Positions 4,799 to 22,696 of a stretch of DNA of 22,696 nucleotides are shown piece after piece (the first letter of the stretch is position 1; every line of letters begins with the position of its first letter). The DNA is from a virus. Location: the IMG/VR virus record IMGVR_UViG_3300017752_002280, positions 1 to 22,696 of that record. One strand, given 5' to 3'. The position numbers and the translations under genes were made by a program. A model generated the notes under the pieces. That model did not search any database. It saw only the letters and a list, made by a program, of their open reading frames with translations, and was not told the DNA's origin.

Positions 4799-6511
4799 AT
4801 GACAAAACAAGTAATAAGTAGAGGTACTAACGCAAACGACGGAACAGGTGATAATCTCCGAGACGGTGCTAATAAGATAAACCTCAATTTTAACGAAATT
4901 TATACAGCATTAGGTAATGGTACAACACTTGATGGTACTATTAAAATTGCTGATGATTCATCTACGGTAGCAACAATTTCTGCCAATGGTGAAACATTAA
5001 AAATTTTAGGTGGTAGTGCTATCACTAGTGTGTTATCAGGTAACACATTAACCATTTCTGCTGACGCTTCATCTCTATTGACTGCTACAGGTGCGGCTAC
5101 TTTAACAAACAAAACAATTAATTTAAGTAACAATAATACACTTTCAGCTACATTTGCTGAAATTAACACAGCAATTTCAGACGCAACTTTAGTTGACACA
5201 GCGGCTTCTCAAACACTTACAAATAAAACATTAAGTGCTGATAATAATACTATTTCAGGTATTGCAGCTTCAAGTTTTGTATTGTCAAATGGTTCAGGAA
5301 ATTTAGATGGTTCTGCTTCAGCAAAAGCAATACCAACAGGTGCAGTTGTAGGTTCAAGTGATACACAAACACTTACAAATAAAACTATTAGTGGTGCAGA
5401 TAACACAATTACAAATATTCCATCTGCTAATGTTACAGGTGTATTTGATAATACATCTTCAGGTTCAAAAATTAGATTTAACTTTGCCGGTACAGGTGCG
5501 TTTCCAAGTGAAACAACTTACGAAGGTATGTTTGCATATGACACAACAGGCAATCAAGCTTATGTTGCAGACGCAGGTGGTTGGACAAAACTTATAAATG
5601 AAAATGCTTCAGTAGGTGATTTATCAAATGTTAATATAACAAGTGTTGCAGACGGTCAAGCATTAATATGGAGTTCAGCACAAGGTAGATTTAATCCAGG
5701 TACTGCTGGTACATCATTAACTGTACAAGAAGAAGGTTCAGCATTATCAACTGCCGCTGATACATTAAACTTTGTTGGTACTGGTGTAACTGCTTCAGGA
5801 ACAGGTTCAACAAAAACTATTACTATTGCAGCTGGTCATACAGCAGGTAATGATTTAGAGATGAATAATACTCCTTTGAGAGACGCAAAATATATTTCTC
5901 ACCGTTCACCAGATTCTACAATTACACAAATTATAACAGTTACAGTTGCAGCTAAAACAAGTGAACACAGCGAGTATGGTACAGGTTCGTCAAATGGTTA
6001 TGTTATTGATGGCGACCAATCTCCACAGGTAACTTTATCAAAAGGTGTTTATAAGTTTGACCAAGCAGACGCTTCAAACTCAACACACCCATTAAAATTT
6101 TATTACGATAGAGATAAAAATAGAGAGTATTCAACAGGTGTTGTCGTAACTGGTACTGCTGGTTCAGCAGGTGCTAATACAACAATTACGATAGATGACC
6201 AGACGCCTACACCATTGTATTATCAATGTACTGCTCATTCTTATATGGGTCATCAAATAGATATTCCGACTGGTCAACAAAAAAGATTAAATATAACATC
6301 AGCAACAGCAACAGGTGATGTGGCTGGAGGAGCAAACTCTGGTAAATCTTTTACAATTTTAGCAAATATGGGTGTTAATGATATATTAGTTTTTGTAAAC
6401 GGTATTTGTATGGTACCAACAGATGACTATACTGTTTCTGGAACAACATTAACTTTTGACACGGCGCCGGCTACGGGAGCAGAAATTCAATTTAGGTACT
6501 TAGGAGCATAA
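4799..6511 (+). CDS. Tail-fibre-like structural protein with possible cupredoxin-like domain
   Basis: This is a 570-residue modular protein. Residues 1-40 hold the GTNANDGTGDNLRDGANKIN and NFNEIYTALG pattern typical of N-terminal attachment domains of marine phage fibres. A TLTNKT motif repeats three times (101-106, 139-144, 191-196), as in fibre shaft regions. Residues about 415-490 contain His430 in THPLKFYYD and then YYQCTAHSYMGH with Cys477, His480 and Met483, an order of ligands like blue-copper cupredoxins. The last 70 residues (VNDILVFVNGICMVPTDDYT, then a beta-rich end) match a C-terminal domain common in phage fibres. It has its own late promoter upstream and is followed after 1 base by a C1q-like gene, so the pair may form an adhesin and its partner. 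The role in adsorption is inferred; metal binding is untested. Confidence 0.75.
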   Translation: MTKQVISRGTNANDGTGDNLRDGANKINLNFNEIYTALGNGTTLDGTIKIADDSSTVATISANGETLKILGGSAITSVLSGNTLTISADASSLLTATGAATLTNKTINLSNNNTLSATFAEINTAISDATLVDTAASQTLTNKTLSADNNTISGIAASSFVLSNGSGNLDGSASAKAIPTGAVVGSSDTQTLTNKTISGADNTITNIPSANVTGVFDNTSSGSKIRFNFAGTGAFPSETTYEGMFAYDTTGNQAYVADAGGWTKLINENASVGDLSNVNITSVADGQALIWSSAQGRFNPGTAGTSLTVQEEGSALSTAADTLNFVGTGVTASGTGSTKTITIAAGHTAGNDLEMNNTPLRDAKYISHRSPDSTITQIITVTVAAKTSEHSEYGTGSSNGYVIDGDQSPQVTLSKGVYKFDQADASNSTHPLKFYYDRDKNREYSTGVVVTGTAGSAGANTTITIDDQTPTPLYYQCTAHSYMGHQIDIPTGQQKRLNITSATATGDVAGGANSGKSFTILANMGVNDILVFVNGICMVPTDDYTVSGTTLTFDTAPATGAEIQFRYLGA

Positions 6512-6512
6512 T

Positions 6513-6962
6513 ATGGGAGCAAAAACAAGAGCAATGTCAATTGGTGTATGTTCGTTTTATGCAACGCCATCAGCTAATCAAACAATTCCAAATACAACAC
6601 ATACAAAAGTAACTATGGATACAGAAGTGTTAGATACTCATGGAGCTTATGATACCTCAACAAGTCAATTTACGGTACCGGCAGGTATGGGTGGATTATA
6701 TGAGTTTTCATATAACGCAAGAATACCTTTGACTAATGGTGAGGAAATGGTTATGGCATTGTATGTTGATGGTGCAAATGTTCCTGCTTCCAACACACAA
6801 ATGTATCCAGGTGCTAATGGTTCGTATTATCACGCCTCTACTACTATGGCCAATTTAACAGCAGGACAGACAGCAGAATTTAGAATATATTTAACATCCA
6901 CTGGAACGAGAACAACAAATAATCTTTATTGTTTTTTCTCTGGTAACAGAATAAACGGATAA
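6513..6962 (+). CDS. C1q/TNF-like fold virion protein, possible adhesin
   Basis: The 149-residue product looks like a single jelly-roll domain of the C1q type. The core segment TSQFTVPAGMGGLYEFSYNA matches the C1q pattern (a FTVPxxGxYxFS strand pair), with a typical strand near LTAGQTAEFRIYL and a final LYCFFSGNRING close to the usual FSGxxL end. C1q-like domains form trimers and occur at fibre tips and as capsid decorations in phages, where they bind ligands or stabilise the fibre. A good ribosome-binding site (TAGGAG at 6501-6506) overlaps the end of the previous gene, and the start is 1 base after that stop. There is no collagen-like stalk, so it would have to attach to another fibre protein, most simply the 570-residue neighbour. 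The fold call is moderate and the adhesin role is inferred. Confidence 0.65.
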   Translation: MGAKTRAMSIGVCSFYATPSANQTIPNTTHTKVTMDTEVLDTHGAYDTSTSQFTVPAGMGGLYEFSYNARIPLTNGEEMVMALYVDGANVPASNTQMYPGANGSYYHASTTMANLTAGQTAEFRIYLTSTGTRTTNNLYCFFSGNRING

Positions 6963-7012: not shown

Positions 7013-8476
7013 ATGCCAGCAATAATAACAGACAGATTTAGAATTCACAATAGTGAACAGTTTTCAGAGGCTTTTTCTGAAGCTTCAGGTAATACATTTT
7101 ATCTAGGTATAGGAAGACCTCAACCATTTGCTACATCTACAAGAGCAGACGGAAGAACAAACAACGAGGGAACAGACGCTGCTCCAATTACACCAGCAGA
7201 TAATGTTAATGCACAATCATTCCCTTATGACGATTTATTGGCGGCTAAAAAAATTACTCAAACAGATATTACTTTTGCAGTACCAAGAAGAAACTGGACT
7301 ACAGGAACAACATACGATATTTACAGACATGATTACGGCGACTATCAAACTGGTAATACAACTGCTATTGCAGCTAATGGTGGTGCGTCAACTTTACATG
7401 ACTCAGCATTTTATGTATTAACTACAGAAAGAAATGTTTACAAATGTTTAGATAATAATAATAACGCAGCTTCAACAGTAGAACCAACAACTACTCCACC
7501 TTCAACTATTATTTCAACTGCTGATGGTTATAGATGGAAATACATGTACACTTTGACTGCTTCACAACAAGCAAACTTTTTATCTACAGATTTTATGGCA
7601 GTTGCTACAAATTCAGATGTTTCATCAAACGCTGTTGATGGTGCAATTAATATTGTAAAAATTAAAACTGCTGGTTCAGGTGGTGCTGAAGGCACACATA
7701 CAGGTATCGCAATGAGAGGTGACGGTTCAAACGGAACAGTTTCAGTTACAGTTACTTCAGGTGCAGTTACAGCAGTTACAGTTACAAACAAAGGAACAGG
7801 TTACACTTACGCAACAATTTCAAATGCACAAATCGTAGCCGCTGGTGCAACAAACCTTGTTGGTGCAGAATTAGATTGTATTATTGAACCAAAAGGTGGT
7901 CACGGATTTAACGCAGTAGAAGAATTAGGTGGTTTTTATGTAATGATGAATACATCACTTGAAGGAACAGAAAGTTCAAACACAGGTGACTTTACAGTTG
8001 CAAACGACTTTAGAAAAATTACTTTAATTAGGGATCCAAATTCAGGTGGTTCAGCTTCTACAACAACAACTTTAAGAGGTACAAAAGCAATTAATCTTTC
8101 AGGTGTTTCAGGAACATTTACAGTTGATGAAGAAATCAACCAAGCCTCTACAGGTGCAGTTGGTAAAGTTGTAGAATGGGATTCAGTAAACAGTATTTTA
8201 TATTACATACAAACTAGACATAATGATGAGGGTGTTGACGCAAACGGAAACCTAACAGCATTTAGTGGACAGAATGTAGTTACAGGACAAACTTCAAGTG
8301 CAAACGGAACACCAACTACATCAACTAGTACAATTAACAGTCAGTCTTTTACAAGTGGTTATTCTAATCCTGAAATTGACGCTGACTCTGGTGATATTCT
8401 TTACATTGAGAACAGAGCGCCTATTACAAGAGCTGCTGACCAAACAGAGAATATAAAACTGGTAATAGAATTTTAG
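7013..8476 (+). CDS. gp8: gp8-like baseplate wedge protein
   Basis: The 487-residue protein starts MPAIITDRFRIHNSEQFSEA and continues with a FYLGIGRPQPF segment, the opening typical of marine T4-like gp8 proteins. It also has the NVYKCLDNN and DGYRWKYMYTL blocks (about 143-187) that are characteristic of the family. gp8 forms part of the baseplate wedge next to gp7 and gp6. T4 gp8 has 334 residues; the extra length here is mainly a beta-rich insertion after residue 200. That insertion holds a GTGYTYATI motif near 263 and, near 370-430, EEINQASTGAVGKVV and VTGQTSSANG modules like those in the 874- and 2045-residue proteins. Late promoter and ribosome-binding site lie just upstream. The stop TAG overlaps the AGGAG ribosome-binding site of the next gene, so the two are coupled. 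The call is strong. Confidence 0.88.
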   Translation: MPAIITDRFRIHNSEQFSEAFSEASGNTFYLGIGRPQPFATSTRADGRTNNEGTDAAPITPADNVNAQSFPYDDLLAAKKITQTDITFAVPRRNWTTGTTYDIYRHDYGDYQTGNTTAIAANGGASTLHDSAFYVLTTERNVYKCLDNNNNAASTVEPTTTPPSTIISTADGYRWKYMYTLTASQQANFLSTDFMAVATNSDVSSNAVDGAINIVKIKTAGSGGAEGTHTGIAMRGDGSNGTVSVTVTSGAVTAVTVTNKGTGYTYATISNAQIVAAGATNLVGAELDCIIEPKGGHGFNAVEELGGFYVMMNTSLEGTESSNTGDFTVANDFRKITLIRDPNSGGSASTTTTLRGTKAINLSGVSGTFTVDEEINQASTGAVGKVVEWDSVNSILYYIQTRHNDEGVDANGNLTAFSGQNVVTGQTSSANGTPTTSTSTINSQSFTSGYSNPEIDADSGDILYIENRAPITRAADQTENIKLVIEF

Positions 8477-16785: not shown

Positions 16786-17514
16786 ATGAATATATTATTA
16801 ACAGGAAGTGATGGCTTCATAGGCTCTCATTTATATCATCATCTAAAAAAAGAACATAATGTTTATGGTTTTGATTTAAAAAATGGTCATAACATTTTAC
16901 AATCAGACTTTCCAAAAGATATAAATTTAGTAATTCATTTAGCAGGTTTATCTGGTGTTAGAGATAGTCTAGGCAGACCTGAAGAATATTGGAAAACAAA
17001 TGTAATTGGCACACAAAGATTATTTGAACACTACAGAGATGTTAGAATAGTTTATGCTAGTTCATCTACAGCACACGAACCATGGAAAAATCCATACGCA
17101 ATGAGTAAGTATAGTATGGAACAACTAAACCATAACAATGCAGTTGGTATGAGATTTACTACAGTTTATGGTCCAGGTGCTAGAGTAGATATGTTAATAC
17201 CTAAAATATTAAGAAGTGATATAGAATACCTAAATGTAAATCATATTAGAGATTTTATACATGTAAATGATGTTGTAAGTGCTGTAGAAATTATGATGAA
17301 TAACACATTTAGAGGTGTTGTAGAAGTAGGCACAGGCATTAGTAATAAACTTGTTGATATTGCAAATTATTTTAAAATAGATTATAAATCTGTATTAGGA
17401 GATGAAACTGAAAGACTAGATAATACGGCTGATATATCTATACTAAATAAGTTTGGATGGCGAGCAAAAATAAACTTATATAATTATATTGAGGAGAACA
17501 GAAATGTTAACTAA
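16786..17514 (+). CDS. NAD-dependent nucleotide-sugar epimerase/dehydratase (extended SDR)
   Basis: The 242-residue enzyme has a Rossmann fold of the extended short-chain dehydrogenase type. MNILLTGSDGFIGSH gives the GxxGxxG dinucleotide loop at 7-13, and Asp30 at the end of the second strand favours NAD. HLAGLSGVRDS (51-61) and YASSSTAHEPWKNPY (90-104) lead to the catalytic Tyr104-x-x-x-Lys108 pair with Ser in the 92-94 stretch, and RDFIHVNDVVSAVE (155-168) is the family C-terminal signature. Relatives convert NDP-sugars (4-epimerases, 4,6-dehydratases, GDP-fucose synthase) and usually have 300-340 residues, so this is a compact form with a short substrate domain. It starts 6 bases after the last structural gene on the late strand, while the glycosyltransferases are on the opposite strand. 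The substrate cannot be deduced. Confidence 0.85.
   Translation: MNILLTGSDGFIGSHLYHHLKKEHNVYGFDLKNGHNILQSDFPKDINLVIHLAGLSGVRDSLGRPEEYWKTNVIGTQRLFEHYRDVRIVYASSSTAHEPWKNPYAMSKYSMEQLNHNNAVGMRFTTVYGPGARVDMLIPKILRSDIEYLNVNHIRDFIHVNDVVSAVEIMMNNTFRGVVEVGTGISNKLVDIANYFKIDYKSVLGDETERLDNTADISILNKFGWRAKINLYNYIEENRNVN
17491..17496 (+). promoter_or_regulatory. Ribosome-binding site GAGGAG fixing the start at 17504
   Basis: GAGGAG lies 7 bases before ATG 17504, inside the end of the epimerase gene. It favours this ATG over an in-frame TTG at 17489, which would put the site inside the coding sequence. Confidence 0.75.
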
Positions 17515-18004
17515 AGAGTATTTAAAAGACAACTTCATTGACGCATATTTTATTAATGAAGAAAGAGACACTATTGAAATCTTAACTACAAGTGAAGATA
17601 AAAAGGAAGTTTTTCCTACTATCATACCTTTCAATGAAGAACATGAAGGATTTAAAGCATTATTAAGTAAGATGTCAGTTGATGATTTACATGAAAGAAC
17701 ATATATCAAAAAGAAAGAAGAAAGAAAACTTTTTGAAGAACAACTTATAAGAATTGGTAAAAAAGATGGTTTTATATCGGAAGACGGAAAAATAGATAAA
17801 GATTTTTTTCCAACACTTGTAAAATCTATTCTTGATAATCCAGATAATGAAGACCACTTATTTTCTTTAAAATTAACATTGTTTGAAGTTCCTAAAATTA
17901 GAGAATCAGAAAATACAGAATTGAAAAGTGCAATAAGAAAAGGTAAAACAAAAGTTGAAGTATTGTTAAATGCTTTAAAACTTATCTCGGAAGAAAGTAA
18001 TTAG
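17504..18004 (+). CDS. Conserved-type T4-like phage protein of unknown function, 166 residues
   Basis: The product is acidic-basic mixed, soluble and mostly helical, starting MLTKEYLKDNFIDAYFINEE and continuing RDTIEILTTSEDKKE. It has a charged helix YIKKKEERKLFEEQLIRIGK near 67-86 and a C-terminal KGKTKVEVLLNALKLI segment. The general pattern reminds me of a small uncharacterised protein found near structural genes of marine T4-like phages, but I cannot name a function. The gene starts 11 bases before the epimerase stop, so it is translated with it. Its last 23 bases overlap the 3' end of the minus-strand glycosyltransferase gene. A tail assembly factor is one possibility, not supported by any motif. 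Confidence 0.7.
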   Translation: MLTKEYLKDNFIDAYFINEERDTIEILTTSEDKKEVFPTIIPFNEEHEGFKALLSKMSVDDLHERTYIKKKEERKLFEEQLIRIGKKDGFISEDGKIDKDFFPTLVKSILDNPDNEDHLFSLKLTLFEVPKIRESENTELKSAIRKGKTKVEVLLNALKLISEESN

Positions 18005-18554
18005 AATACCAACCAGACCAGCCTTTTTCTTGAAGATGGTGCATTTGACCTAAAGTACAAATACTATAGTCTTTTGGTTTTTCATATAGGTAATCTTTTA
18101 TAGAAGGACAAACTGGTTCATAAGTCCACTTGTAATCTATTTCTTCATAATAAAATTCATCACTACCTCTAGTATAATACTCTAGGTTTTCATCTTCATA
18201 GATTTTAAATGTATTCCAAATATAAGATACATCACCTGTCCATGAAACAATAGACGAGTTCAAAGGTGTATGAGCAGGCTCACGCCACCATGTATCATCT
18301 AATAAAGTAAAATATTTTCTAACTAGATTAGGTAGTTTGTTGAATATAACAACATCTAAATCAAAATATAGATTTTCGCCGTCTTTAAATTTACTATACA
18401 TTTGAAGTTTATTAAAAACATTGTTATACGGATTTTCTGTAATAACTTCAAAACTATCATACTTTAGACCAGAGTATGTGTCTATCATATGTTTTAAATT
18501 ATCTACATGCCAATCTGTAAACTTGTCACCAAACTTACAACATATTATTCTCAT
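17982..18554 (-). CDS. Short DxD glycosyltransferase-like protein, 190 residues
   Basis: The protein has the layout of a small GT-A fold transferase. It opens with a MRIICCKFGDKFTDWHVDN strand, then a nucleotide-binding region, and then the NLYFDLDVVIFNKL strand containing the metal-binding Asp65-x-Asp67. DDTWWREPAHTPLNSSIVSW (86-105) followed by YIWNTF (111-116) closely parallels YDTWWPRNISVNGGFYKF and YIWNDF in the 248-residue neighbour, so the two are paralogues. This copy is shorter in the N-terminal and C-terminal parts and has NSS where the other has NGG. It is the last gene of the operon: its ATG overlaps the upstream stop in an ATGA. The sugar and acceptor are unknown. GT activity is inferred from the motif set. 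Confidence 0.7.
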   Translation of the reverse strand: MRIICCKFGDKFTDWHVDNLKHMIDTYSGLKYDSFEVITENPYNNVFNKLQMYSKFKDGENLYFDLDVVIFNKLPNLVRKYFTLLDDTWWREPAHTPLNSSIVSWTGDVSYIWNTFKIYEDENLEYYTRGSDEFYYEEIDYKWTYEPVCPSIKDYLYEKPKDYSICTLGQMHHLQEKGWSGWYSNYFLPR

Positions 18555-19447
18555 TTTATTTCTTTTACTTTTATAGCCCTATATCTAAATGAATTTATTT
18601 TAAACTCTGCTTTATCAGGAATTAAATGAAAATCGCCGTAAGGGTCTTGTACTTGTTTACCTTTATATTCATGCATATCAACAATAGTTGCTTTTCTCAT
18701 TTTCTTGCCAGTTCTAGGATGTGTTTCTTGTCCTGTTGTAGTAATTTTACTACCATTAGCTGCGCCAATCATAAGTTCGTGTTCATCTGATTCCCAACGA
18801 GGTTTATTTTCTTGAGGATAACCTATTCCTAATCCGTAACATATTTCCATTGTTCCATTTTTAACTTCATCCATAATGCCTAATCGTTTAGGCCAGAAAT
18901 CGTCACCGTTTAAATCATTATGACTTTTATTTGCGCCTGTTGAAAGACCCATTTTGTTAGCAACTCGCATTGTTAAACCTAATGAAATACCAATACTACA
19001 GTAAGCGTTTTGCCACCTATTCTTATCTGTATTAACTTTTATCGTACCGTCAGCATTGCTATTCAATGTGCTTTCAGGTTCTTTTGCAACCCATATCATA
19101 TAAATGCTAGCATTTGTTTGTGAGTTTCTCCAAGTTGCTGGAGGATTTCTTCTATGAGTATAACCCCAAGTATATTTTGATATTTCTTCAATTACTTTTC
19201 TATCGTAAGTATAGTAAACATCAAAATATCCTTCATGTTGTTTTGTAGGAGAGTTTGTTGCTGTCCATATCAATTCATTTACAGCTTGTTTTATAAGTTC
19301 AGGATGTAAGGCGTCAAATTTGTCATAGTCCCAATTTCTCTGGCACTTTTGCATTTCTAACATGACTTTTCTTTCATTGTCCCAATCATAAAACATTTTC
19401 ATAATTTTTCTTTCTTCTTTATCAGTCACACTATCCATCTTAGCCAT
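18551..19447 (-). CDS. Nitroreductase-like flavoprotein, 298 residues
   Basis: Several blocks match the nitroreductase fold in order. KCQRNWD (34-40) occupies the place of the FMN-phosphate arginine motif, and NELIWTATNSPTKQHEGYFD (57-76) that of the A-x-x-SPSxxNxQPW loop. NAYCSIGISLGLTMRVANKM (147-166) with GLSTG matches the dimer helix followed by the GLGT turn, and EICYGLGIGYPQ (201-212) the GYP strand. The usual SxxN of the loop is altered to SPTKQ, so substrate and flavin contacts may differ from standard enzymes. Members reduce nitro groups, quinones or other substrates with NAD(P)H, and some act in natural-product pathways. The start at ATG 19447 is chosen because GGAG lies 6 bases upstream; an in-frame TTG at 19459 would overlap the previous gene. 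It lies between two glycosyltransferase genes, with 2 bases before and a 4-base overlap after. Confidence 0.65.
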   Translation of the reverse strand: MAKMDSVTDKEERKIMKMFYDWDNERKVMLEMQKCQRNWDYDKFDALHPELIKQAVNELIWTATNSPTKQHEGYFDVYYTYDRKVIEEISKYTWGYTHRRNPPATWRNSQTNASIYMIWVAKEPESTLNSNADGTIKVNTDKNRWQNAYCSIGISLGLTMRVANKMGLSTGANKSHNDLNGDDFWPKRLGIMDEVKNGTMEICYGLGIGYPQENKPRWESDEHELMIGAANGSKITTTGQETHPRTGKKMRKATIVDMHEYKGKQVQDPYGDFHLIPDKAEFKINSFRYRAIKVKEIK

Positions 19448-19449
19448 TT

Positions 19450-20196
19450 TTATCTCCAATATTTTTTAATAAAGTTTGCATTATATTTATGTACGGCATT
19501 ACCAACGCCTTGAAAGTGTACTACTTTGATTTTTTCATTTAAGTCATCTAACATCATATAATCTGTTTTAAATCTTTTTGAATAAAGTTTATTCAGTTCC
19601 ACCATATCTTTGTTGTTATGTTTATGTGAACCTAACCATTCACCTGGTACTTTAGTTACCGTCTTATTCTTTTCGTGTAATTTCCAATCAACATAATTTT
19701 TTTCTCCATAAAATCTATAATGCACATCACCATTCTCAAAATAATGATTTTGCCAATAATCTGGATTTAAAGCAAAGTCATTCCATATATAATCTAATTG
19801 ACCAGATTTAAACTTATAAAATCCACCATTAACACTTATATTTCTAGGCCACCATGTATCGTAAGTCACAAGTTCATTATCAGATACAGGATAGTTTATT
19901 AGTTCATCTATATTACCTGTGATAACTTGGTCAATATCCATTATAATAATTTCATCACCTGGTTTTTGATATGCAAACTGTGAGCTGAAAAACTTTAGTT
20001 TATGCCAATGTTTTTTGATAGCACTATGATGATTGTATGGTAAAATTAAATCAGCTTTGACATCTGTATCACTAATACAAACAAACTCAAAAGGAATTGA
20101 TGTATTTCTTTTTAGACCATTGTAAAACTTTTCAACATAATCTGGTGTATAATAAGACCAATCATCTTGAAAGAATACTGTACATATCTTAATCAT
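19450..20196 (-). CDS. DxD glycosyltransferase (GT-A, GT8-like), 248 residues
   Basis: The N-terminus MIKICTVFFQDDWSYYTPDY gives a first GT-A strand. EIIIMDIDQVITGNIDELI (82-100) is a clear DxD site (Asp87-x-Asp89) of the GT8-like type, binding a metal and the nucleotide-sugar phosphate. WWPRNISVNGGFYKFKSG (115-132) supplies the N-G-G acceptor loop, and KVVHFQGVGNAVHKY near 223-237 supplies the C-terminal metal-ligand histidine typical of GT8 relatives. No membrane segment is visible, so it acts in the cytoplasm. A good GGAGA ribosome-binding site precedes the ATG, and the first 8 bases overlap the end of the upstream gene. The shorter 190-residue gene appears to be a paralogue. Donor sugar is not readable. 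Confidence 0.8.
   Translation of the reverse strand: MIKICTVFFQDDWSYYTPDYVEKFYNGLKRNTSIPFEFVCISDTDVKADLILPYNHHSAIKKHWHKLKFFSSQFAYQKPGDEIIIMDIDQVITGNIDELINYPVSDNELVTYDTWWPRNISVNGGFYKFKSGQLDYIWNDFALNPDYWQNHYFENGDVHYRFYGEKNYVDWKLHEKNKTVTKVPGEWLGSHKHNNKDMVELNKLYSKRFKTDYMMLDDLNEKIKVVHFQGVGNAVHKYNANFIKKYWR
19454..19457 (-). promoter_or_regulatory. Ribosome-binding site GGAG for the 298-residue gene
   Basis: Read on the minus strand, GGAG precedes ATG 19447 by 6 bases and falls across the end of the upstream glycosyltransferase gene. It supports the ATG rather than TTG 19459, whose own codon would run into this site. Confidence 0.65.
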
Positions 20197-21064
20197 ATCT
20201 TCTCCAAACTAAATCAAAGTCCTTACTTATTGCATGTACAATCTTTGTATCGTATGGTATAAACTTTTGTTTATCTAAAAAATAATGCCATTTACTATCT
20301 AACCATTGTATGTTTACTTTATTAACTTCTTTCTTATATGAAAAGATAGTTTCATTATCATAGTGAAACATATCAATTATATTTTGTGGATATAAATCAA
20401 TTAAAACAAAATCACCATATGGGTCATCACTATCTGATTTTAATTCATCCATTAATTTCATAGTATCGTAAAAGTTACCAAAAAAATCTAATTTTTTAAT
20501 GTCTTCACTTCTTGCACCTATAATACCTGTATTAATTACATCATTATTAGGATTGTAACCAGTTTTTAAAAGCATAGCATGACAATTAAAATACTTGGCT
20601 GATGGACTTCTAATACTACTATTCACAGTTCTTTTTTTATCTACATGATTGTTATTATTATAAACACAAATACCTTTTGATAAATCCCATGCGTCAAAGA
20701 ATGATTCAGTTGTTAAAGGTATAGCGTCAAAGTCAAGATATAATATCTCATCAAAACTTTTTGATAATTCGTACAATAAATGTATTTTATAAAAGTTAAT
20801 TATTTCATAACCTGTTAATTGTGGAAAGTTTCTTTTAAAATTTTTCTCAAATGCTTTATATTGGTCATCATATTCATACATTCTAAAATCAGCACCAATG
20901 TCTTTAGCGTATCTTCTTTTACATTCTACTAATTTTTTATAATGATTTTTAAATGCGTTTACTGTAATACTAGCTTTCTCTTTAGTATCATGTGGATTTT
21001 TAGAATCACCATAATGTTCTTCAACTGGTATATCAACATATAAACTATAAATTACTCTACTCAT
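20189..21064 (-). CDS. DxD glycosyltransferase-like protein, 291 residues
   Basis: This is a third GT-A-type transferase, only distantly like the other two. FDEILYLDFDAIPLT (104-118) carries the DxD (Asp111-x-Asp113) after a long N-terminal Rossmann-like part with TGYEIINFYKIHLLYEL (84-100) as the pre-DxD helix. DVINTGIIGA (175-184) is the usual N-T-G acceptor loop, and KIVHAISKDFDLVW near the C-terminus contains a histidine in the place of the third metal ligand. I chose ATG 21064, which overlaps the methyltransferase stop by 8 bases; an in-frame TTG at 21073 would extend it by 3 residues, and the ribosome-binding site is weak for both. Together with the 248- and 190-residue enzymes it could assemble a glycan of two or three sugars. 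Confidence 0.75.
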   Translation of the reverse strand: MSRVIYSLYVDIPVEEHYGDSKNPHDTKEKASITVNAFKNHYKKLVECKRRYAKDIGADFRMYEYDDQYKAFEKNFKRNFPQLTGYEIINFYKIHLLYELSKSFDEILYLDFDAIPLTTESFFDAWDLSKGICVYNNNNHVDKKRTVNSSIRSPSAKYFNCHAMLLKTGYNPNNDVINTGIIGARSEDIKKLDFFGNFYDTMKLMDELKSDSDDPYGDFVLIDLYPQNIIDMFHYDNETIFSYKKEVNKVNIQWLDSKWHYFLDKQKFIPYDTKIVHAISKDFDLVWRRYD

Positions 21065-21641
21065 ATTTACCAATCAAAAGAAATCTAGTTCCTCTTTCAT
21101 CTATAATTTTATCTTCTATCATAACTTTAGCATTATCAGGTAATTGATATTTAAATTCTTCAATAGATGATACACAATTAATATGTCCTTCTATATCATA
21201 CATATTATTAGAAGTGTAAGCAAAATAAGCTTTAGTTTCTAAATTTAATTCTTTCATAGACGGCATATGTTCACAGGAAGTATTGATAATTAAATCTGTT
21301 TTTTTAATTCTACTTGAATCAGGTGCCCAATCAAAAACATCTTTTGATATGAAATCTACATTATAATCTTTAAATATTTTATACTTAGCTTTACTAATTA
21401 CTTTAGGGTCTAAATCAATAGCAGTAATTCTTTTAACTTCATTATAAAACGAGGGTATTAATATACTGCCATACCAACAACCAAATATTACAATTTCAGA
21501 ATCTTTGTTTAGTATATTTAAATCTCTAATATGATTAATTAATGTTAGTTTAGATTTGAATTGATTTGGACTAAATGAATCTAGTAAGTCTTTATTCTCT
21601 CTCACTTCTTCCATTATGTTTTGTAATAATTTTATATCCAT
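21057..21641 (-). CDS. SAM-dependent methyltransferase-like protein, 194 residues
   Basis: The fold appears to be a class I methyltransferase. SEIVIFGCWYGSILIPSFYN (48-67) is a motif I variant with G-x-W-x-G instead of the usual GxGxG, and ITAIDLDPKVISKAK (72-86) has the acidic residue at the end of strand 2 that binds the SAM ribose. DFISKDVFDW (96-105) is motif III-like, and TDLIINTSCEHMPSM (115-129) is the strand 4 motif leading to the catalytic side. The NTSCEHM site lacks the NPPY/DPPY signature of N6-adenine or N4-cytosine DNA methylases, so a sugar or small-molecule target is more likely, given the glycosyltransferase genes beside it. Its start overlaps the upstream gene's end by 10 bases and its end overlaps the downstream start. 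The enzyme class is fairly sure, the substrate unknown. Confidence 0.75.
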   Translation of the reverse strand: MDIKLLQNIMEEVRENKDLLDSFSPNQFKSKLTLINHIRDLNILNKDSEIVIFGCWYGSILIPSFYNEVKRITAIDLDPKVISKAKYKIFKDYNVDFISKDVFDWAPDSSRIKKTDLIINTSCEHMPSMKELNLETKAYFAYTSNNMYDIEGHINCVSSIEEFKYQLPDNAKVMIEDKIIDERGTRFLLIGKYE

Positions 21642-22348
21642 TTTACAACATCTTCAATTTCAGGTTTAATATCTTCATGTTCAACCCCTCTCTCTTTTAA
21701 AAAATCTCTTCTCGTTCTAGCAGCTATACCACAAGACATTAATAAAATAGGTCTATATTCAACATGATTTAATCCTTTTTTGTGCCATTCAGCAACACTT
21801 CTTTTAAAACATGATGTGTAAGAAATGTCAATATTTTTTTCTAACAAATAGATTGATAAATTTTGAACAAACAAACCTACTTCTACTGCTACAGAGTCTA
21901 CTATTCTCTCAACTAAATGTGGAAACATTTGGTCAGCAAAATGACCTTTTTTTACTTGTTTTACATAATAAGGATTTAATTCTTTTAATACTCTACTATG
22001 AAAAGAAAATAGATATGCATTATTTTTTATATGAGCATAGTCTGGATTTTGCATACCACCTTGTGTCTTATCATTAAGTCCAAAATCAACAGCTCTTTGT
22101 TCGGCGTCCTTATGATTTTGCCAACACAACTCATATATACTTTGTTTTTCTTTTGCATGATTAGGACCATATACATCTACTCTATATGGCATACAATTGT
22201 TTTTTGCTGGAGTTGTTTTCCATGCTTTATATAAACACTCTTCAATAATCTTTTTATCTGGAATGGCTGGATGATAAACTCTTACATGTTTTCTTTTCTT
22301 TTCTAATATGTCAAAAGAGCTTATTGGTTTATTTTCTGTGTCACTCAT
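21632..22348 (-). CDS. Nitroreductase-family flavoprotein, 238 residues
   Basis: This is a clearer nitroreductase-fold member than the 298-residue gene. SFDILEKKRKHVRVYHPAIP (11-30) holds the FMN-binding RxxxR-type start, and CLYKAWKTTPAKNNCMPYRV (38-57) matches the A-x-x-x-P-x-x-x-N-x-x-P-W/Y loop. DSVAVEVGLFVQNLSIYLLE (151-170) is the core dimer helix, and PILLMSCGIAARTRR (200-214) the late strand followed by basic residues. Family enzymes are FMN dimers that use NAD(P)H; in this place it could reduce or dehydrogenate a pathway intermediate. The ATG at 22348 is preferred over an in-frame TTG at 22363 because GGAG lies 9 bases before it and the ATG overlaps the carbamoyltransferase stop as ATGA. 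The similarity to the 298-residue protein is remote, so this is not a recent duplicate. Confidence 0.75.
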   Translation of the reverse strand: MSDTENKPISSFDILEKKRKHVRVYHPAIPDKKIIEECLYKAWKTTPAKNNCMPYRVDVYGPNHAKEKQSIYELCWQNHKDAEQRAVDFGLNDKTQGGMQNPDYAHIKNNAYLFSFHSRVLKELNPYYVKQVKKGHFADQMFPHLVERIVDSVAVEVGLFVQNLSIYLLEKNIDISYTSCFKRSVAEWHKKGLNHVEYRPILLMSCGIAARTRRDFLKERGVEHEDIKPEIEDVVKWI

Positions 22349-22696
22349 TTTTTTATTCTCCAATCGTTAATGACAAGTATATCTAATTCTGTCTTTTTAA
22401 ATGTTCTAATTGCCTGTTCTGGTGTTTCTACAATAGGTTCTTGACAATTAAAACTAGTATTTAATAACATAGGTATACCTGTAATTTTATAAAACTCATT
22501 TATAATATTATAAAACTTTTCGTTAAATTGTTTATTGACCGTTTGTATTCTTGCTGTACCGTCCACATGCGTAACGCCAGGTATCTTATCAGATTTTACT
22601 TTACAAATCCGAGACATGTAAGGACTAGGACTATTTGTATCAAAGTAATCTTTATAGTGTTCTTCTAATACTGCTGGTGCAAATGGTCTAAAGTCT
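22345..22696 (-). CDS. Carbamoyltransferase, NodU/CmcH type, C-terminal part (start outside window)
   Basis: The frame is open to the window edge, so only about 116 C-terminal residues are seen. They match the carbamoyltransferase C-terminal (YrdC-adjacent NodU/CmcH/TobZ) domain: DFRPFAPAVLEEHYKDYFD, SPYMSRICKV, IPGVTHVDGTARIQTVNKQF, GIPMLLNTSFNCQEPIVETP and ELDILVINDW in the family order. Full-length relatives are 500-600 residues and transfer a carbamoyl group from carbamoyl phosphate, through carbamoyl-adenylate, to a hydroxyl of a sugar, antibiotic or, in some phages, possibly a modified DNA base. It is the most upstream gene of the minus-strand set seen here and is coupled to the next by an ATGA overlap. 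The family call is very strong; the acceptor is unknown. Confidence 0.93.
   Translation of the reverse strand, partial: DFRPFAPAVLEEHYKDYFDTNSPSPYMSRICKVKSDKIPGVTHVDGTARIQTVNKQFNEKFYNIINEFYKITGIPMLLNTSFNCQEPIVETPEQAIRTFKKTELDILVINDWRIKK

Follow-up and report, generated by a model that had tools for sequence, protein, structure and literature searches.

Do some phages carry a copper site in their tail? The question is raised by a stretch of viral DNA of 22,696 nucleotides (IMG/VR record IMGVR_UViG_3300017752_002280), referred to here as the window, in which an earlier note had described a cupredoxin-like metal site within a tail-fibre protein of 570 residues. The familiar cupredoxins carry electrons or form part of oxidases.

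The window aligns with the genome of Pelagibacter phage Mosig EXVC030M (Kyanoviridae) over 83% of its length, with 81% identity. The 570-residue protein contains a T4_gp9_10_N domain (PF07880, 31.7 bits for a Pfam cut-off of 25) and matches two PHROG families, phrog_677, "baseplate wedge tail fiber protein connector" (E 3.7e-36), and phrog_30742, "tail fiber protein" (E 3.6e-36). The neighbouring ORFs match baseplate wedge families of the PHROG collection, and the gene is flanked by baseplate-wedge genes at 283-2133 and 7013-8476. BLASTP aligns its first 121 residues with the N-terminus of gp9 from cyanophage P-SSM4 (E 7e-16, 42% identity over 122 alignment columns), and a second, C-terminal segment, up to residue 489, with the same protein (E 1e-10). 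The match to PHROG 677 is thus accompanied by similarity at both ends of the protein and by a position in a baseplate cluster. Because of PF07880, PHROG 677, the baseplate neighbours and the P-SSM4 gp9 alignment, the protein is identified from its sequence as a gp9-type baseplate/tail-fibre connector of a Kyanoviridae pelagimyophage and not as a plain tail fibre; "tail-fibre protein" was a fair name, but a loose one in view of the two gp9 matches. Its parts are the following:

4799..6511, plus strand: cupredoxin-bearing gp9-type baseplate wedge/tail-fibre connector, 570 aa (Pfam, PHROG, BLASTP)
4805..5152, plus strand: N-terminal gp9/gp10-like baseplate attachment region, residues 3-118 (PF07880; P-SSM4 gp9 match)
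5951..6271, plus strand: cupredoxin domain as predicted, residues about 385-491 (AlphaFold, Foldseek, VIA, profile links)
6275..6508, plus strand: small C-terminal region past the cupredoxin, residues 493-570 (phmmer)

The region after the cupredoxin (residues 492-570 as phmmer query) is found in 36 of 116 domain-carrying viral ORF segments, and one portion is similar to a segment of a K1 capsule depolymerase (E 0.017). The connector gene is immediately followed, at positions 6513-6962, by a gene for a C1q-like protein of 149 aa (PF00386, 34.5 bits for a cut-off of 23.7), which is possibly a trimeric fibre tip. Further along, the Mosig counterparts of the genes at 17982-22617 (minus strand) carry nitroreductase-domain, methyltransferase and carbamoyltransferase annotations, and an epimerase-like gene (16786-17514, plus strand) adjoins this block. 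Together, the genes from 16786 to 22617 may be a small cluster, next to the tail genes, for the modification of sugars or of the surface.

The ORF translation and its coordinates confirm that the four residues proposed as ligands are present, at these positions:

6086..6088, plus strand: His430, putative copper ligand 1 (sequence, conservation)
6227..6229, plus strand: Cys477, putative copper ligand, final residue of a predicted strand (sequence, model, conservation)
6236..6238, plus strand: His480, putative second His ligand, in the loop preceding the last predicted strand (sequence, model, conservation)
6245..6247, plus strand: Met483, putative axial ligand with amicyanin spacing (sequence, model, conservation)

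The stretch YYQCTAHSYMGH of the connector protein ends at position 6253. The whole protein has two cysteines, six histidines and six methionines, and a C-x2-H-x2-M string arises in 6 of 20,000 shuffles of its sequence. Two histidines, one cysteine and one methionine follow each other in the order seen in type 1 copper sequences, with the cysteine ending the predicted strand before the ligand loop. The earlier note had considered that the methionine lies two residues closer than in the plastocyanin type, so that the geometry may differ or the domain may be a non-binding relative. The spacing is in fact normal: the ligands of amicyanin, as listed in an extract of PMC12723479, are His53, Cys92, His95 and Met98, which is the C-x2-H-x2-M spacing of the window protein, and a plastocyanin-type spacing with a misplaced methionine was rejected on this ground. 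On the basis of the same extract, the combination of two His, one Cys and one Met, within a cupredoxin and with amicyanin's loop, is the known type 1 copper set. Since the loop is a known type 1 loop, no special geometry is needed.

A cupredoxin fold is predicted around these residues. The AlphaFold model of residues 365-495, calculated with 100 sequences, has a mean pLDDT of 92.8 and a pTM of 0.88. In this model Cys477 (model residue 113) is at the end of a strand, His480 and Met483 (116 and 119) are in the loop before the last strand, and His430 (66) is just ahead of strand 68-71; the ligand loop is bordered by predicted strands 109-113 and 121-124. When the model is compared with the PDB using Foldseek, rusticyanin comes first (E 1.2e-3), and 49 of the 50 matches listed belong to the cupredoxin superfamily by title, the other being an antibody complex. 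Four of the 50 are SufI, which we take to have a cupredoxin fold without copper. VIA-align also gives rusticyanin as the best match, with 108 residues aligned at 3.2 Å and a Z of 8.5, a modest value that is little above the usual one for this tool, and all 50 matches listed are cupredoxin-superfamily chains by title.

The cupredoxin domain is the C-terminal end of gp9 in many cyanophages. A second AlphaFold model, of this gp9-form domain (32 sequences, pLDDT 88.5), has amicyanin as its first Foldseek match, and 10 of the first 11 rows are amicyanin or pseudoazurin with an amicyanin loop; immunoglobulin-like and other folds also appear in the lower rows. Its best VIA rows are cupredoxin domains of copper nitrite reductase (Z 8.6). 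No Foldseek match reaches E 0.001 with the window-domain model against the PDB or with the gp9-form model. The prediction is that of a cupredoxin-type Greek-key β-sandwich, and the AlphaFold model, the Foldseek matches and the VIA matches agree in supporting, at the level of predicted structure, the proposal of a cupredoxin-like fold with β strands around the site.

The window-domain model also matches giant-virus "beta-sandwich proteins" in BFVD (E 5.1e-8 to 2.8e-7), namely A0A481Z6J5, A0A481YY19 and A0A481YWX9 from Pithovirus LCPAC302 and Marseillevirus LCMAC201/202.

The link to copper proteins can also be followed in sequence. Pfam finds no cupredoxin in the window sequence itself, which does not reach the gathering cut-off of PF00127 (Copper-bind); it is therefore regarded as a relative within the cupredoxin superfamily only, and not as a member of PF00127. 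Three profiles were used: A2, the window-family profile (the window plus 99 of 101 non-redundant homologues, L001 and L036 being left out), A6 (the window plus 12 phage copies picked for their canonical look) and A7 (32 of the 38 distinct gp9-form sequences). A2 matches two Prochlorococcus proteins of 148 aa (E 2.3e-6 and 2.7e-4), which themselves pass PF00127 with 29.0 and 33.7 bits (cut-off 21.2). It also gives 44.8 bits with an ORF of a phage contig, L501. This gp9-form sequence and another one, L500, exceed the PF00127 cut-off of 21.2 with 21.7 and 22.3 bits, respectively; the other 18 gp9-form sequences scanned singly miss it, and most phage copies tested fall short.

Profile comparison with hhalign gives a score of 29.4 and a probability of 55% for A2 against 10 PF00127 proteins (the best of 150 column shuffles scores 20.8). 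With A6, whose members were chosen as stated above, the score against PF00127 proteins is 59.7 and the probability 97% (shuffles 17.9), with His, Cys, His and Met in register. A search of PDB sequences with A6 returns 57 rows at E <= 1 (best E 4.8e-5), of which 56 bear the name of a copper protein. The domain of phage P-HM2, used as a single query, finds plastocyanin first (E 0.0026), and 10 of its 12 rows are copper proteins. The profile of the window finds no solved structure by sequence at E < 0.1, and NCBIfam yielded nothing of use. The sequence-profile link to known cupredoxins is thus made by A2, A6, L501 and the Prochlorococcus proteins.

An auxiliary plastocyanin gene was also considered and rejected, the domain being inside a structural-type ORF of the baseplate cluster. 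Another family, PF25489 (At5g54830-like), gives weak matches with 27 of 100 A2 members (best E 0.013) and with 10 of 32 A7 members (best E 0.0016), those inspected singly being below cut-off. These matches cover the Cys-His-Met end of the domain, and PF25489 may be related to cupredoxins without having been recognised as such.

Conservation of the four residues is high. All four are kept in 134 of 137 distinct homologous domains, which come from three scans: ligand residues were part of the search patterns in two of them (one of six patterns in one scan, the sole pattern in the other), and the third, with a ligand-free pattern, contributed the best 80 of 559. Because ligand residues were present in the patterns, a new sample was drawn with a ligand-free pattern located upstream of the first His. 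It comprises at least 118 loci, all of which were analysed, and 116 distinct sequences. According to the profile alignment, and among the matches listed, all four residues are kept in 105 of the 116 distinct copies; two other copies, L294 and L324, gave no score at the Cys, His and Met columns. Conservation in homologues, on which the earlier note had made its proposal depend, is therefore found in both samples, and it places the motif beyond chance.

A chance motif in an unrelated protein was also considered, and the shortness of the motif and the silence of Pfam on the window sequence are in its favour. The fold, profile and conservation results speak against it; it was rejected on the conservation and the fold, and its probability is practically nil.

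The way in which the residues are lost is also informative. In the ligand-free sample, Cys and the second His are lost jointly in 9 of the 116 copies and one of the two alone in none (Fisher 1.5e-13, a value that overstates independence, the sequences being related). The nine degenerate copies keep His430 in five cases and Met in two; overall they retain 7 of 36 ligand positions, versus 116 of 162 at 18 other conserved positions (Fisher 1.3e-8, relatedness ignored). Independent loss of Cys, His and Met had been named as what would disprove the site; Cys and the second His instead disappear together in all nine cases. The gp9-form set was retrieved with six patterns; the first His was part of one of them, and the second His together with the Met was part of another. 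Its 38 distinct sequences show C-x2-H-x2-M in 37 cases and C-x2-H-x3-M in the remaining one.

The motif is not present everywhere. By hand count, 23 named phage records contain 58 domain matches, 36 with the Cys-His-Met motif and 22 without, the latter still being recognised by the family profile. The fold therefore serves without metal in part of the family. This observation, together with the presence of SufI among the Foldseek matches of the window-domain model, could suggest that the domain is a metal-free β-sandwich scaffold of cupredoxin descent, similar to SufI, in which the four residues persist because packing or folding requires them. We consider this unlikely, since the joint loss of Cys and the second His, while other conserved positions mostly stay, and the retention of Cys-His-Met in 38 of 38 distinct gp9-form sequences form the pattern of a shared site. 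Judging from the sequences, metal-free descendants appear to be common in large virion proteins, and the site seems to be kept or dropped nearly as a unit. In giant baseplate proteins of P-HM2 (gp7; L352 and L426) and MED4-213 (L427), a copy without the motif is directly followed by an intact copy within the same protein. The S-CREM1 domain (L421) is also a degenerate copy.

If the site holds a metal, it could be one other than copper. Cupredoxin sites accept zinc in vitro, and a zinc or iron ion in the virion might have a purely structural role. An extract of PMC11705849 describes phage tails that carry iron at HxH motifs, but the two His, the Cys and the Met of the window protein, with their amicyanin-type loop in a cupredoxin, form the set known for type 1 copper (extract of PMC12723479), and a metal other than copper is quite unlikely.

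The domain is widespread in marine viruses. tblastn searches of 50,697 phage records retrieved 25 records with the window domain, 105 with a shorter relative, 167 with the canonical phage form and 335 with the gp9 form, the last being all cyanophage, pelagiphage, methylophage or marine/uncultured by name; the four lists overlap and are dominated by cyanophages. The names of the matching records are those of Synechococcus, Prochlorococcus, cyanophage, Pelagibacter, Methylophilales, marine or uncultured viruses, with two exceptions, one "Actinomycetia" record in the canonical-form list and one seawater record named only "phage" in the shorter-relative list. Contigs attributed to marine bacteria and archaea contain copies of the domain as well, some of these copies within very large ORFs. 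Those in single-cell and metagenome assemblies, above all in the smaller contigs, may belong to viral contigs. Relatives L150, L151, L152, L138 and L141, some of them with degenerate sites, lie in open frames of 2,377 to 7,465 aa, in assemblies of marine Flavobacteriaceae, Prochlorococcus and Bacteroidetes.

Phage S-PM2 reportedly adsorbs in a light-dependent manner, which was considered as a function of the domain. This proposal is unsupported: S-PM2 gave no match to the gp9-form profile, an empty answer that alone shows little, and its one match to A2 is weak (E 2.1e-4) and partial, covering profile positions 22-81 and stopping short of the Cys.

The reading that we consider probable is that the gp9-type connector contains a cupredoxin domain with an intact set of amicyanin-type ligands, which would stabilise or regulate fibre docking by means of copper. 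Each domain would hold one copper per chain, as type 1 copper, because both the ligand set and the loop are of the type 1 kind. Phages assemble in the cytoplasm, where very little free copper is present, so that the metal would be taken up outside the host, after assembly, in the lysate or in seawater. The copper would then stabilise or regulate the part of the tail where the fibres dock. In T4, gp9 forms a trimer at each of the six fibre sockets; about 18 putative sites per virion would therefore be expected.

A different use of the metal can be imagined, in which tail copper acts as a lure for metal-uptake or surface proteins of the host, as in the Ferrojan Horse proposal for iron. The connector is a protein of tail type, and phages that infect marine picoplankton carry the domain, but this domain belongs to gp9, which is presumably located at the fibre socket, as in T4, and not at the fibre tip. 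The lure is very unlikely, even if the analogous proposal for iron is already in print (extract of PMC11705849). Stabilisation or regulation at the fibre joint is the most likely role, ahead of a host-binding lure or electron transfer.

The stabilising or regulating role can be extended, tentatively, to a switch: in many marine T4-like phages, a type 1 copper in the gp9 joint (about 18 per virion) might, through its binding or its Cu(II)/Cu(I) state, set whether the fibres are docked or deployed. If this is true, adsorption would be sensitive to copper or to redox conditions, and virions would form a small pool of copper ligands in the ocean. Some very abundant viruses would have a metal site at the joint by which infection is controlled. 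The hosts concerned are Prochlorococcus, Synechococcus, SAR11 and OM43 bacteria, in whose phages an intact type 1 ligand set lies in the end domain of the fibre connector. The scattered idea that tail metals play a part in adsorption and in the trace-metal chemistry of seawater becomes a testable question, and a domain for which most database entries say no more than hypothetical or tail fibre receives a name.

In searches of the open-access literature, no cupredoxin or copper domain on a phage tail was found among the papers listed; the one passage retrieved on copper binding together with cyanophage structural proteins concerns viral NirK. Metals on phage tails are described in an extract of PMC11705849, with iron at the HxH motifs of T4 gp37 and iron also proposed for the tail fibre of Alteromonas phage R22Y. 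These sites share with the window protein the idea of a metal on the tail, and differ in ligands, fold and location in the tail. The comparison with T4 fibre iron made in the earlier note keeps its value for this idea, but it is a loose analogy only, because T4 uses the HxH motifs of gp37.

Three known proteins are closer. P-SSM4 gp9 (PHROG 677) has the same kind of N-terminus, the same C-terminal domain and, in the BLASTP alignment, residues of the same kind in register with His430, Cys477, His480 and Met483; it is shorter (409 aa versus 570), the window protein having an extra region after the cupredoxin. Rusticyanin, the ligands of which include Cys138, His143 and Met148, is the best full-length match for the fold of the window domain, with a longer ligand loop and an identity of about 9-15%. 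Amicyanin has the same Cys-x2-His-x2-Met loop with an upstream His, and ranks first for the gp9-form model; however, the first His and the Cys are separated by 39 residues in amicyanin versus 47 in the window protein, in which the copper site is putative. Amicyanin is a free, small electron carrier for methylamine dehydrogenase, whereas the window domain is a module of a virion-type protein of 570 aa, and it is therefore amicyanin-like in its loop only. The fold and the site are already known; their location in a phage tail is new, as far as the searches of the open-access literature show.
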